NCBI GenBank assembly: GCA_903931945.1
Contig: CAIZEI010000158.1
Location: 1 to 64,000 of the forward strand
DNA: 64,000 bases
Direction: 5' to 3'
Origin: an uncultured Hyphomicrobiales bacterium
GTDB lineage: Bacteria; Pseudomonadota; Alphaproteobacteria; Rhizobiales; Beijerinckiaceae
Below, piece after piece: positions 51,445-55,115 of this stretch. The position numbers were made by a program, and so were the translations under genes. The notes beneath the pieces are model-generated. The model did not search any database, was not told the origin of the DNA, and saw only the letters and a program-made list of their open reading frames with translations. The first letter of the stretch is position 1, and the number at the start of each line of letters is the position of its first letter.

Positions 51445-52434
51445 TCACTGCTTTTTCATCGCCAGCGCCTTCACCGCGTTACGGATGGGCGTGAAGGGCC
51501 CCAGCCTGTGGGCGGTTGCGTCGAACCCGTCCATCCACGGCCCGTAGCCGGCATCGACAGGCTTTTCTGTCCGCACCGGAAAATCCTTGTCGAGATCGGC
51601 CTTGTGCGGGCGCGGCTGGCTCTGCACATAGGCCGCGACGTCCCATGCGTCCTCAACCGACACAACCGGGTTTTGCCAGTCAACGCCATTGGGCATGTTG
51701 GAACGGATGAAATTGGCGGCCGAGATCAGCCGGTTCATGCCCGCGCCATCGTTAAAACTGTCCGGCCCCCACAGCGGCGGGAAGAGATATCCCTTGCCAT
51801 CGCCAACCACGCCCGCGCGTTTGCCCTGCCCGTCGGCGCCATGGCAGGCTACGCAATTGTCGGCGAACACAGTCTTGCCACGGACAGGGTCCGCGGGACG
51901 GTCAAGTTCCTTCATCGCGCCGCCGCCGCGCCCTGCGGTCGGCGCCCCCACCGCCACGCCGGTCGACAGAAATTTGATATAGGCGACCATCGCCTTCATC
52001 TCGGCGCTGTCGAGCGGCAGCGGCTTGCCATTCATGCTGCGCGTCATGCAACCATTGATACGGTCCTCAATTGTGCCGACCTCGCCTTCCCGTGCCCGAT
52101 ATTGCGGGAAGTCGCCATAAACGCCGACATAGGGCAGGCCGAATTTTTTCGCGCCCGCTTCCAGGTGGCGGCTCTGGCAGGTCAGATTCGAGCCGGCGTA
52201 GCGCAGCGCCGGGTCTTTCTGTTCCGGCCCGATGAGCGCAGGCGTGTTGACCTGGAGGTCGCGCCCGTAGCGGATCAACCGACCCCAGGCGTCATCGCCA
52301 AGTTTCGAGGCGTCCGGCGGGCTCCATGCCGGCGCGGGCGATGCAGCGGGGGTCTGCGCGCCAGCGGGCGCCGCCAACGCCGCGCAAAGCGCCAGAACCA
52401 GCGCTGCACAGTAGAGTTTGGGAGTCGCGATCAT
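51445..52434 (-). CDS. TsdA/SoxA-like cytochrome c with one degenerate haem motif
   Basis: Periplasmic cytochrome of 329 residues with a signal peptide ending APAGA. The layout matches the thiosulfate dehydrogenase (TsdA)-like family: RYAGSNLTCQSRHLEAG, VGTIEDRINGCMTRSMNGKPLP, and a second cytochrome domain with CVACHGADGQG (194-198). The first haem site reads CQSRH (86-90) instead of CxxCH; one base change (TGC to CGC) explains it. The first haem may be singly bound or missing. Last of three co-directional genes with a DsrE protein and a 725-residue haem protein, pointing to sulfur-compound oxidation (inference). Confidence 0.85.
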   Translation of the reverse strand: MIATPKLYCAALVLALCAALAAPAGAQTPAASPAPAWSPPDASKLGDDAWGRLIRYGRDLQVNTPALIGPEQKDPALRYAGSNLTCQSRHLEAGAKKFGLPYVGVYGDFPQYRAREGEVGTIEDRINGCMTRSMNGKPLPLDSAEMKAMVAYIKFLSTGVAVGAPTAGRGGGAMKELDRPADPVRGKTVFADNCVACHGADGQGKRAGVVGDGKGYLFPPLWGPDSFNDGAGMNRLISAANFIRSNMPNGVDWQNPVVSVEDAWDVAAYVQSQPRPHKADLDKDFPVRTEKPVDAGYGPWMDGFDATAHRLGPFTPIRNAVKALAMKKQ

Positions 52435-52467
52435 GCCTCAACCAAATTATTCACATTGCCGCATAAA

Positions 52468-52923
52468 TCATGGCCTGACATAGGCAAAACCCTGCTCCTG
52501 CAATTCAGCAAGGCGCACGATGCCGGCTGGCACAACGCGCGCCTCCGAAATAATCGGGACAGGCTTGCCTTCCTTTTTTTCCATGCCCGTTTTCGTATTG
52601 TTGCAGGCCGACAGCGCCACTTTCGGATCGAGCTTCAGAAGCTCGCGTATCTGCTCTTTCACCGGCGAAGTGTCGTCGCGCAGCATATGCAGGCCGCCGC
52701 TGTTGGCGACGATTTCCATAGTCACCTCCTCGCCGAGTTTCGAATAGACCTCATAGGCGTTTTTCGCATTGTTCAGCGCTGTCTTCATCGACTCCTCGGA
52801 GTTGAAGCCGACATGGAGCACGATCTTGTGCAGCTTTTTGTTTTCCTGAGCGCGCGCGGTCGCAACAAGGGAGGCTAAGCCAGCTCCCGCAGCCGCCCAT
52901 TTGAACATCCATCTACGATCCAT
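52468..52923 (-). CDS. Exported DsrE-family protein
   Basis: A 151-residue protein starting at ATG 52923, after GGAGCTCGTC. The first 26 residues (MDRRWMFKWAAAGAGLASLVATARA) form a signal peptide. The rest is a DsrE-like sulfur-relay fold: LHKIVLHVGFNSEESMKTALNNAKNAYEV, VANSGGLHMLRDD, and the single mature Cys in ALSACNNTKTGM at the conserved DsrE active-site position. Periplasmic DsrE proteins are often near sulfur-oxidation genes. It lies 14 bp after the 725-residue protein and 33 bp before the TsdA-like cytochrome. Confidence 0.85.
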   Translation of the reverse strand: MDRRWMFKWAAAGAGLASLVATARAQENKKLHKIVLHVGFNSEESMKTALNNAKNAYEVYSKLGEEVTMEIVANSGGLHMLRDDTSPVKEQIRELLKLDPKVALSACNNTKTGMEKKEGKPVPIISEARVVPAGIVRLAELQEQGFAYVRP

Positions 52924-52937
52924 GACGAGCTCCTGTG

Positions 52938-55115
52938 TCAGTTCGCCAGCGGGTCCGGACGCACCTGGATTTTCACGACCTTGGGCAATGTTCCCTTGCC
53001 GCCTTCCATATGAAACGGCGCGCGGGTTCCCGTTGTGGTCCAGATCGCCCTGCCCTTCCATCCCGCATTGGGATCGTCGATGCGGCCATCCAGCCCCTTG
53101 GCGTAAAAACCGTTGGGATAGGGTACGCGCATGTTGACCCATTCCCCCTTGACCAGAGCAAGAATGCTCTCGTTCTCGTTGCCGGTCGCCATCGGCGTGT
53201 CGGCGCCAAGTCCGGACGTGTTGAACTGGTCAACCCAGGTGTAATAGGCGGCCTCTGCGCTCCCGTTCGAGGCGACGCCCTTGAAGTTTGGGCCGGGGAA
53301 CGGATACAGCGTCCAGCCCTCCGGGCAATGGTCGCCCGTCGCTGTAGGACCGTTCAGCGGCCCCTTGCACTTCGAGCGATCGAAGACCCCCATATGTCCG
53401 CTGGAGAGCGGAACCCAGACACGGTTCTGCCGGTCAACGTCCATGCCACGAATGCCGTATCCCTTCTGGTTGGGATCATCCGTTTTGAACGGCATGTTGT
53501 AAACTTCCGAAATCGTTGTTTCGGGCGGGTTGGCGCCGGGAACGACCCGCACGATCTGGCCGGGGAAGGTGCGCACCGAACCCCAAATCGAACCATCGGG
53601 CGCTGGCGAAACGCCGTAGAAACCGGCGTTCAGCCGCATGTTCTTGCCGGGTTCCTGCGGTTTGCCAGGCTGGGTATAGGGCTGCCCGGGTCCCTTGCCC
53701 GAGGTGTCGATGATAATCGGCGTCCAGCCCTGCGACTTCTGCTCGTCGTGGGTCTCGTCAAACATTTTTGTGTTGAACCACCCGACAGCGCCGCCCCCCG
53801 CGCCGCCGCTGGACGCCCAGATCGTGTTATTGGCGTCCTCGGCGAACGAAATGTGATGCGTGCCAAAGCAGGTGTCGATGAGGGTGAATTTTTCGCTCTT
53901 CGGGTCCCACAGCGACAATTGCCGCCCCGAACCCGTCAGCGGGAAGAATTTCGCCGATGGATGGTCGGAACCCGCCTTGCAGAAGGCCGGGTTATCTGTC
54001 GGACGGATACGCGTTGTGTACCAGGTGCGACCGATCTGATCGATCATCATATTATGGGTATCGGTGCGGCTGTCCCAGATCGGTTCTTCTCCCCAATAGG
54101 CGGACGGCGCCATCGGATCGGTGCGCGAGGAATCGGTTTTGGGATCGCGGACGCCAACCGTATTGGATGACCGCGTCGCGGTGACCGGATCGAGCACCGG
54201 CAGATCGTCGGTCGAATATTCGGGCGAGCCGAAAATCTTGCCGTTGGCGTTGACCGTGGGATTGCGCTTGTCCGTTGAAATCTCGTCGTGCATATACATT
54301 TTCTCGCGACCCCAATCCCATTCGGTCACGACAATGTTGCGCTCGACGCCCTTGGGCCGCTCGGGTTTTGCGAAGGGCGTTTCGCCCGCTGCGATCCGGT
54401 CAGTCCAGTCGCCGAAATTCTCCAGCGCCCGATGCACGTCAAACCGGGCGATCTGCTGGGTCATGCTGGTCATGGCCTGCCCGGACTGGATGCGCCGCTC
54501 CCAGGCTTCCGCCGAAGTTTTAAAGACATTGAATTCTTTGGGCACGACGCGGGTGCCATTGCCGCCAAGCTGGTGACAACCGACGCAGCCATTGCTCTTG
54601 ATCCCGTCGAGCCAGTTTTCCTGACTTGGCTGGTTCTTCGCCATGCCATTGCCCGCAGGCGCCGGCCCTGTGCCGGGGAACTCGTCCTTGCCGGGAATCT
54701 TCAGCATGGCGAGCCAGTAAATCGCCGGATAATATTTCGCCGCCGCCTGTTCGTCCGGCGCCAGCGTTGCGGTGAGATTGAGCGTCTTGCCCGGCGCGGA
54801 ATCGGTTTTCGGCGAATCCACGAGTCCATAGCCGCGCACCCAGACCTTGTAATTGGCCTTGGGCAATTGCGGCAGGAGGTAGCGGCCCTGATCATCCGTC
54901 ACCACCATTTTTGCAAATTTCGTCGGCAGATCGGAAGTTTCCGCGATTACCCAGACCCCGGCCTCAGGTCCTTTCGGCCCGGTGACCACGCCGCCAATGT
55001 CGGATTCGCTGATTTTAATCGCGGCAGTCGGCGTCTGCGCGCGCGCGCCGGTCCATCCGGCAAACCCAAGCGCGGCAAAAGCCGTTGTGGCAAGTGCGAA
55101 AGTTCTAACGTTCAT
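52938..55115 (-). CDS. Mono-haem protein with carboxypeptidase-regulatory and propeller-like domains
   Basis: A 725-residue periplasmic protein, signal peptide about 1-26. A beta-sandwich carboxypeptidase-regulatory-like domain (about 35-120: ISESDIGGVVTGPKGPEAGVWV, DDQGRYLLPQLP) is followed by a haem-binding CVGCH (177-181) and a large C-terminal region (about 270-700) with repeated strand/turn motifs such as NTIWASS, GSIWGSV and NRVWVPL, typical of virginiamycin-B-lyase or SMP-30-like beta-propellers. The catalytic centre is not evident. First gene of an operon with a DsrE protein and a TsdA-like cytochrome. Homologues exist in related bacteria with no assigned function, to my knowledge. 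Confidence 0.85.
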   Translation of the reverse strand: MNVRTFALATTAFAALGFAGWTGARAQTPTAAIKISESDIGGVVTGPKGPEAGVWVIAETSDLPTKFAKMVVTDDQGRYLLPQLPKANYKVWVRGYGLVDSPKTDSAPGKTLNLTATLAPDEQAAAKYYPAIYWLAMLKIPGKDEFPGTGPAPAGNGMAKNQPSQENWLDGIKSNGCVGCHQLGGNGTRVVPKEFNVFKTSAEAWERRIQSGQAMTSMTQQIARFDVHRALENFGDWTDRIAAGETPFAKPERPKGVERNIVVTEWDWGREKMYMHDEISTDKRNPTVNANGKIFGSPEYSTDDLPVLDPVTATRSSNTVGVRDPKTDSSRTDPMAPSAYWGEEPIWDSRTDTHNMMIDQIGRTWYTTRIRPTDNPAFCKAGSDHPSAKFFPLTGSGRQLSLWDPKSEKFTLIDTCFGTHHISFAEDANNTIWASSGGAGGGAVGWFNTKMFDETHDEQKSQGWTPIIIDTSGKGPGQPYTQPGKPQEPGKNMRLNAGFYGVSPAPDGSIWGSVRTFPGQIVRVVPGANPPETTISEVYNMPFKTDDPNQKGYGIRGMDVDRQNRVWVPLSSGHMGVFDRSKCKGPLNGPTATGDHCPEGWTLYPFPGPNFKGVASNGSAEAAYYTWVDQFNTSGLGADTPMATGNENESILALVKGEWVNMRVPYPNGFYAKGLDGRIDDPNAGWKGRAIWTTTGTRAPFHMEGGKGTLPKVVKIQVRPDPLAN

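Follow-up and report, generated by a model that had tools for sequence, protein, structure and literature searches.

A 64,000-nucleotide stretch of contig CAIZEI010000158.1 from an uncultured Hyphomicrobiales bacterium (hereafter the window; contig C158 of a host assembly of 5.0 Mb, 203 contigs and 98.5% completeness) encodes three neighboring proteins on its minus strand: a haem-containing propeller protein (P0001), an exported-looking DsrE-family protein (P0002) and a TsdA-like cytochrome c (P0003). We consider it somewhat better than an even bet that this locus is a local composite, in which P0002 and P0003 would form a thiosulfate/tetrathionate pair, possibly impaired, beside the unrelated P0001. 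The three genes together probably do not make up a single conserved pathway, and as judged from sequence the locus appears real but composite. Gaps between P0001 and P0002 and between P0002 and P0003 were 14 and 33 bp, a spacing that makes joint transcription of the three genes probable in this genome. As described in an earlier note on this DNA, the three open reading frames (ORFs) were found in place and all looked exported, their signal peptides being assessed by eye. None of the three is a chance ORF, each having protein relatives in other genomes.

The neighborhoods of P0001 relatives set this gene apart from the other two. No DsrE or TsdA was detected (profile searches at E 1e-3 and E 1e-15, respectively) in the flanking sequence examined at 123 P0001-family loci besides the window, of which 78 extended 1.5 kb or more downstream and 66 that far on either side, some being two views of one place. 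Homology between the window and the loci of the closest P0001 relatives (86-87% identical; L040, and L206 of genome G015) ended at the P0001 stop codon. Among 116 neighboring ORFs scanned out of 205 mechanically selected, the most frequent Pfam family was SGL (5 ORFs), followed by TctC and NHL (4 each), and no sulfur family was prominent among the 25 families listed. ORF clustering together with this tally yielded no conserved partner. As neither DsrE nor TsdA was found at these loci and no Pfam family exceeded 5 of the 116 neighbors, the propeller gene has no fixed partner, and P0001 would be a chance or recent neighbor of the DsrE-TsdA genes here. These counts contradict the single undescribed three-gene system proposed in the earlier note, the neighborhood survey of the 725-residue family pointing to random association for the propeller gene. 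The broader proposal of a sulfur-handling system held for the DsrE and TsdA-like genes, whose pairing recurs with sulfur-related genes near by in Bacteroidota plasmids, but not for P0001.

Table 1. Features of the three-gene locus, in window coordinates
Feature	Position	Strand	Basis
P0001, 725 amino acids; signal peptide (by eye), Ig-like CarboxypepD_reg domain ~38-120, c-type haem domain ~165-245, beta-propeller ~258-725	52938-55115	-	
P0002, 151 amino acids, DsrE-family protein with Tat-like signal	52468-52923	-	Pfam; match to MTH1491 structure 1l1s
P0003, 329 amino acids, TsdA-like cytochrome c, signal peptide (by eye)	51445-52434	-	Pfam, NCBIfam and PDB searches; tree
Only haem-binding motif of P0001, CVGCH, residues 177-181	54573-54587	-	C177, C180 and H181 invariant in 44 aligned sequences
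Propeller region of P0001 with invariant H276-D277, H354-N355, H421 and H702	52941-54344	-	Alignment and AlphaFold2 model
Cys107 codon, sole Cys of P0002, motif ACNNT	52603-52605	-	Cys in 18/18 aligned DsrE proteins, P0002 included
First (catalytic) haem motif of P0003, degenerate CQSRH	52165-52179	-	CxxCH in 35 other family members aligned
Cys129 codon of P0003, equivalent to TsdA catalytic haem-ligand Cys123	52048-52050	-	Alignment; Cys123 role from PMC4423706
Second haem motif of P0003, CVACH, intact	51841-51855	-	Sequence and alignment

P0001 and its haem propeller family

The domain layout that the earlier note had read into P0001 was borne out. The protein harbored exactly one CxxCH motif and matched CarboxypepD_reg at E 7e-6, below the Pfam cut-off, and the same domain was matched at E 0.01 by all 44 aligned P0001-family proteins. 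The suggested structure prediction was carried out with AlphaFold2 on the 44-sequence alignment (mean pLDDT 88.4, pTM 0.89) and displayed an immunoglobulin-like (Ig-like) domain, a helical haem domain and propeller strands. Besides the haem motif, residues H276, D277, H354, N355, H421 and H702 were invariant across the alignment. H276, H354 and H421 were located at or beside the starts of predicted propeller strands, and this placement suggests a metal or substrate site in the modeled protein.

Searches of Pfam and NCBIfam gave no NCBIfam match and no Pfam family specific to P0001. Foldseek queried with the model returned generic propellers only, with TM-scores by query length of at most 0.35 among the 50 matches listed, and these matches were dropped as a guide to function for such low scores. 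A likeness of the propeller to pyrroloquinoline quinone (PQQ) or thiocyanate dehydrogenases was likewise abandoned, no search supporting it.

A relationship was found with virginiamycin B lyase-type propellers (Vgb_lyase, PF24684). Three proteins clustered near a P0001 relative (L043:3168-9199), as well as one protein in locus L058, displayed the order CarboxypepD_reg, haem motif, propeller, with CxxCH in three of the four and CFQSCH in the other. PF24684 exceeded its cut-off in two of the L043 proteins (E 1.3e-36 for the one with CFQSCH, and 4.3e-17), while the third L043 protein (47.5 bits against a cut-off of 50) and the L058 protein (20.6 bits) fell below it. Aligned by hhalign, the P0001 profile (A2) and the joint profile of these four sequences (A4) matched with a probability of 99.4% and E 1.8e-21, so that P0001 appears, by profile comparison, to be a divergent relative of propeller proteins of the Ig-haem c-Vgb-lyase type. 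P0001 and the L043 proteins are alike in domain order. Unlike them, P0001 had long insertions and no PF24684 match (E up to 1), this family being also absent from the five families matched at E 0.01 by the 44 aligned proteins, and its haem motif has two residues between the Cys where the strongest PF24684 matcher has three.

The P0001 family was present in 34 of 61 genomes searched, corresponding to 34 of 37 genomes of the genus (own genome included) and none of the 24 others, and in 3 of 299 genomes drawn evenly from the phylum (own genome included). A pattern scan of named genomes matched at least 594 stretches, at least 572 of them encoding a P0001 relative; cultured strains with a relative include Rhodocytophaga aerolata and Pararhodonellum marinum. 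Record titles of the best 80 of these at least 572 relatives named Acidobacteria, Gemmatimonadetes, Rokubacteria, Beta- and Alphaproteobacteria, Bacteroidota and others, and, by record titles, the family was frequent in metagenome-assembled genomes from soil and groundwater. Literature searches found no reaction assigned to it. It is a large and widespread group of haem propellers, apparently unstudied.

The own genome also encoded a second full copy of P0001 (57% identical), as well as two contig-end pieces. This paralogue (contig C175, L006:6507-13419) was found among genes that resembled, by eye, those of organic-acid catabolism (thiamine pyrophosphate-enzyme-, carboxymuconolactone-decarboxylase-, racemase- and acyl-CoA-dehydrogenase-like). 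In locus L074 (RE-9nov16-174), two P0001-family genes were found in tandem, 61 bp apart, the second recognized by eye from its N-terminus.

P0002, P0003 and the recurrence of their pairing

The TsdA-like cytochrome of the earlier note was recovered. P0003 matched SoxA-TsdA_cyt-c (PF21342; 53.9 bits, cut-off 27) and Cytochrom_C (57.8 bits, cut-off 21.3), its best solved relative was TsdA (4wqc, E 1.2e-52), and it failed the SoxA model TIGR04484 (49.2 bits against a cut-off of 110). As in TsdA of Allochromatium vinosum (PDB 4v2k, 4wq7-4wqe; organism as given in PMC4423706), two cytochrome domains were present, with a common catalytic Cys, common Arg/Ser substrate residues, and a second haem with CxxCH and the NM(P) motif. 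P0003 Cys129, Arg115, Arg125 and Ser133 aligned with TsdA Cys123, Arg109, Arg119 and Ser127. In TsdA, according to PMC4423706, thiosulfate is joined to the haem-ligand Cys123 to give a Cys-S-thiosulfonate intermediate, and Arg109, Arg119 and Ser127 are substrate residues. P0003 differs from TsdA by its first haem motif, its DsrE neighbor and its placement with plasmid proteins of Chelatococcus, Hymenobacter, Spirosoma and Runella. As only the second of its two haem motifs is an intact CxxCH, we call it TsdA-like and not TsdA.

The nearest relatives found were Chelatococcus plasmid proteins (59% identity), Hymenobacter plasmid proteins (50-53%) and the proteins of loci L160-L162 (50-54%). A tree of 36 rows placed P0003 in a clade of nine with support of 94/83, just under the mark of the tree program, together with Chelatococcus, L160-L162 (same phylum), two Hymenobacter, Spirosoma and Runella.

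P0002 matched the Pfam DsrE family (PF02635) at 17.2 bits and E 0.0061, below the cut-off of 22.7, and the solved MTH1491 (1l1s) at E 5.4e-5. Its start is like that of twin-arginine translocation (Tat) substrates (Pfam TAT_signal E 0.015, below cut-off). These features and its sole Cys, kept in all aligned DsrE proteins (Table 1), are compatible with the exported one-cysteine DsrE of the earlier note. PMC4175335 describes DsrE3A of Metallosphaera cuprina, a DsrE-family protein with a reactive Cys, which forms Cys-S-thiosulfonate with tetrathionate and then hands thiosulfate to TusA. According to the same source, DsrE3A has two conserved Cys, works with TusA and is encoded beside Hdr-like genes, whereas P0002 has one Cys and an export-like signal.

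DsrE and TsdA-like genes were found together in other lineages. Fifty-two plasmid records had a P0003 match, and all seven from Bacteroidota also matched the Spirosoma DsrE. By annotation, DsrE directly followed the cytochrome in five of these seven; in Hymenobacter NBH84 the two were separated by one gene, and in Pontibacter by about 8 kb. Only one of the 45 non-Bacteroidota records (Indioceanicola) also matched a DsrE query, about 22 kb off. In the sampled genomes, DsrE directly preceded TsdA in L186 and L187, so gene orders of the pairs differ between lineages. Within 1.5 kb of the TsdA-like gene, DsrE occurred at 5 of the 9 loci of the clade that holds P0003, the window among them, and at 2 of the 27 other loci (Fisher p 0.0056), a comparison that is suggestive only, the rows being related and the window having prompted the test. 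Among the titles and abstract openings listed by literature searches, mostly outside subscription journals, none described the trio or a DsrE-TsdA pair.

Sulfur-related genes accompanied the Bacteroidota pairs. Exporters annotated for sulfite/sulfate were found near by in six of the seven records, Spirosoma displaying a UPF0324 protein instead, and YeeE-type transporters in three. The Runella slithyformis cluster included a rhodanese-MBL protein, and Spirosoma encoded a sulfite-dehydrogenase-like protein that fell short of the cut-offs of its families. A SoxB-like hydrolase was encoded in four of the seven records (best in each 245-338 bits, below cut-off). In Runella slithyformis, where it follows DsrE, its best NCBIfam model was SoxB (255.9 bits, next model 129.5, cut-off 550). 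None, or a 23-bit fragment, was obtained in the two Hymenobacter records with adjacent pairs and in Spirosoma. As the SoxB model also matched 10 of 14 control genomes below cut-off, a SoxB match alone is not specific. Four Bacteroidota plasmid records of 45-137 kb (L193, L249, L250 and L251) combined the TsdA-like cytochrome, DsrE and SoxB-like hydrolase without SoxY on the plasmid, three of them also with an OprD-type porin and YeeE; this gene set is a possible mobile thiosulfate module.

Relative to the Sox system (SoxAX, SoxYZ, SoxB), P0003 has a homologous cytochrome domain but scores far below the SoxA cut-off, and the Bacteroidota plasmids share a SoxB-like hydrolase with it in four of seven records but no SoxY was found on the eight plasmids searched (plasmids only, chromosomes not included). 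SoxY was present in all five genomes searched alongside, both with the pair (G160, G243) and without it (G438, G150, G233), the latter three also encoding SoxB over cut-off. Since G160 and G243 have SoxY despite the pair, DsrE does not stand in for a missing SoxY outside plasmids. In the own genome, SoxX, SoxZ and SoxA exceeded their cut-offs and lay, with a SoxY-related AACIE-type protein and a weakly SQR-like protein, in a Sox-like cluster on contig C203 (L247:4630-8411); no SoxB over cut-off was found in this 98.5% complete assembly.

Closer to the trio, a toxin-antitoxin-like pair (an HTH_37 protein and a Gp49-like protein) was found upstream of P0001 (55614-56248, minus strand). The neighboring superoxide dismutase gene is variable (best congener match 57%), and synteny sought through it gave no empty site for that reason. 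Promoter-like sites (3 observed, 1.7 in shuffles) and terminator-like sites (4 observed, 7.0 in shuffles) were counted, and the Rfam search gave no match.

Competing explanations and a proposed mechanism

Several observations weigh against a thiosulfate/tetrathionate pair at this locus. The first haem motif of P0003, a degeneracy missed by the earlier note, is CQSRH where all 35 other aligned family members have CxxCH (row L140, the window itself, being kept apart). The DsrE genes nearest to P0002 (43-52%) came from its own genus and order, not from the Bacteroidota pairs, and had no TsdA in the flanking sequence examined. The nearest proteobacterial relatives of P0003 (Chelatococcus plasmid and L160-L162; 50-59%), members of its own clade, had no DsrE match within 6 kb, and 25 of 27 TsdA-like loci outside the clade had none within about 1.5 kb on each side. 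No close solved structure for P0001 was found by PDB sequence search or Foldseek. The full trio was seen in only one genome examined, so the upkeep of the operon cannot be compared across genomes. As these proteobacterial relatives had no DsrE match within 6 kb and P0002 is nearest to DsrE of its own genus and order, the window's pair seems to have arisen independently; if the pairing is functional, this would be convergence.

The damaged haem motif and a scattered distribution would suggest a decaying insertion, with DsrE and TsdA having arrived beside P0001 through transfer or rearrangement and TsdA now on its way to loss. Among the 37 genomes of the genus, a strong TsdA-like match occurred only in the window and in G031 (38%), while the P0001 family occurred in 34, and the toxin-antitoxin-like pair and the superoxide dismutase are accessory neighbors. 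Yet the P0003 frame is full length and has kept its catalytic Cys, thiosulfate-binding residues and haem 2, unusual in an old pseudogene, and the lost motif amounts to a single base, which an assembly error would also explain; we regard decay as unlikely, if the least so of the alternatives. A Sox-like pathway with the exported DsrE replacing SoxYZ as sulfur carrier, and the window as a proteobacterial offshoot with its own recruited DsrE, would have the TsdA-like cytochrome conjugate thiosulfate to the DsrE Cys, the SoxB-like hydrolase cut off sulfate and the sulfane be oxidized or imported. The hydrolase is encoded in four of the seven Bacteroidota plasmid records, but the other three lack it, and G160 and G243 have SoxY together with the pair (the SoxY scan being plasmid-only for Bacteroidota), making this a distinctly unlikely reading.

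Integration of all three proteins into one periplasmic sulfur-oxidizing system, with P0001 as catalyst or electron partner, DsrE as sulfur carrier and the TsdA-like cytochrome as electron and sulfur-conjugating unit, would fit the tight spacing, common strand and export-like character of the trio, as well as the recurrence of DsrE with TsdA elsewhere. The 123 P0001-family loci without DsrE or TsdA in the flanking sequence examined, the break in homology with L206 and L040 at the P0001 stop codon, and the diversity of the P0001-relative neighbors scanned render it quite improbable. At the other extreme, P0003 could be an ordinary TsdA, with DsrE and the propeller as accidental neighbors and DsrE without a role in thiosulfate turnover, in line with the lack of DsrE within about 1.5 kb at most TsdA-like loci outside the clade and at four of nine inside it, and with the single distant match among non-Bacteroidota plasmids. 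Such an accident is very unlikely, given that DsrE-TsdA adjacency is repeated in separate lineages with different gene orders and, with the window and related rows counted, is enriched in the clade.

Under the composite that we favor, P0002 and P0003 would work as a periplasmic pair. By analogy with TsdA, P0003 would join thiosulfate to its haem-ligand Cys as Cys-S-thiosulfonate. We infer that the only Cys of P0002 would accept this thiosulfonate from the cytochrome or, alternatively, attack tetrathionate as in archaeal DsrE3A, and then carry the group onward. Electrons would leave P0003 through haem 2. The CQSRH motif, one base change away from Cys at its Arg codon, could reflect an error of assembly, a recent mutation or attachment of the haem by a single thioether bond, and the cytochrome may accordingly be impaired here or retain its haem through that bond. 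P0001 would act separately, its haem suggesting that it oxidizes a substrate, which we guess to be organic, and delivers the electrons to a soluble cytochrome.

If exported DsrE proteins do accept thiosulfonate from TsdA-like cytochromes, periplasmic thiosulfate oxidation would have a second carrier chemistry in addition to that of SoxYZ, and one encoded on Bacteroidota plasmids.

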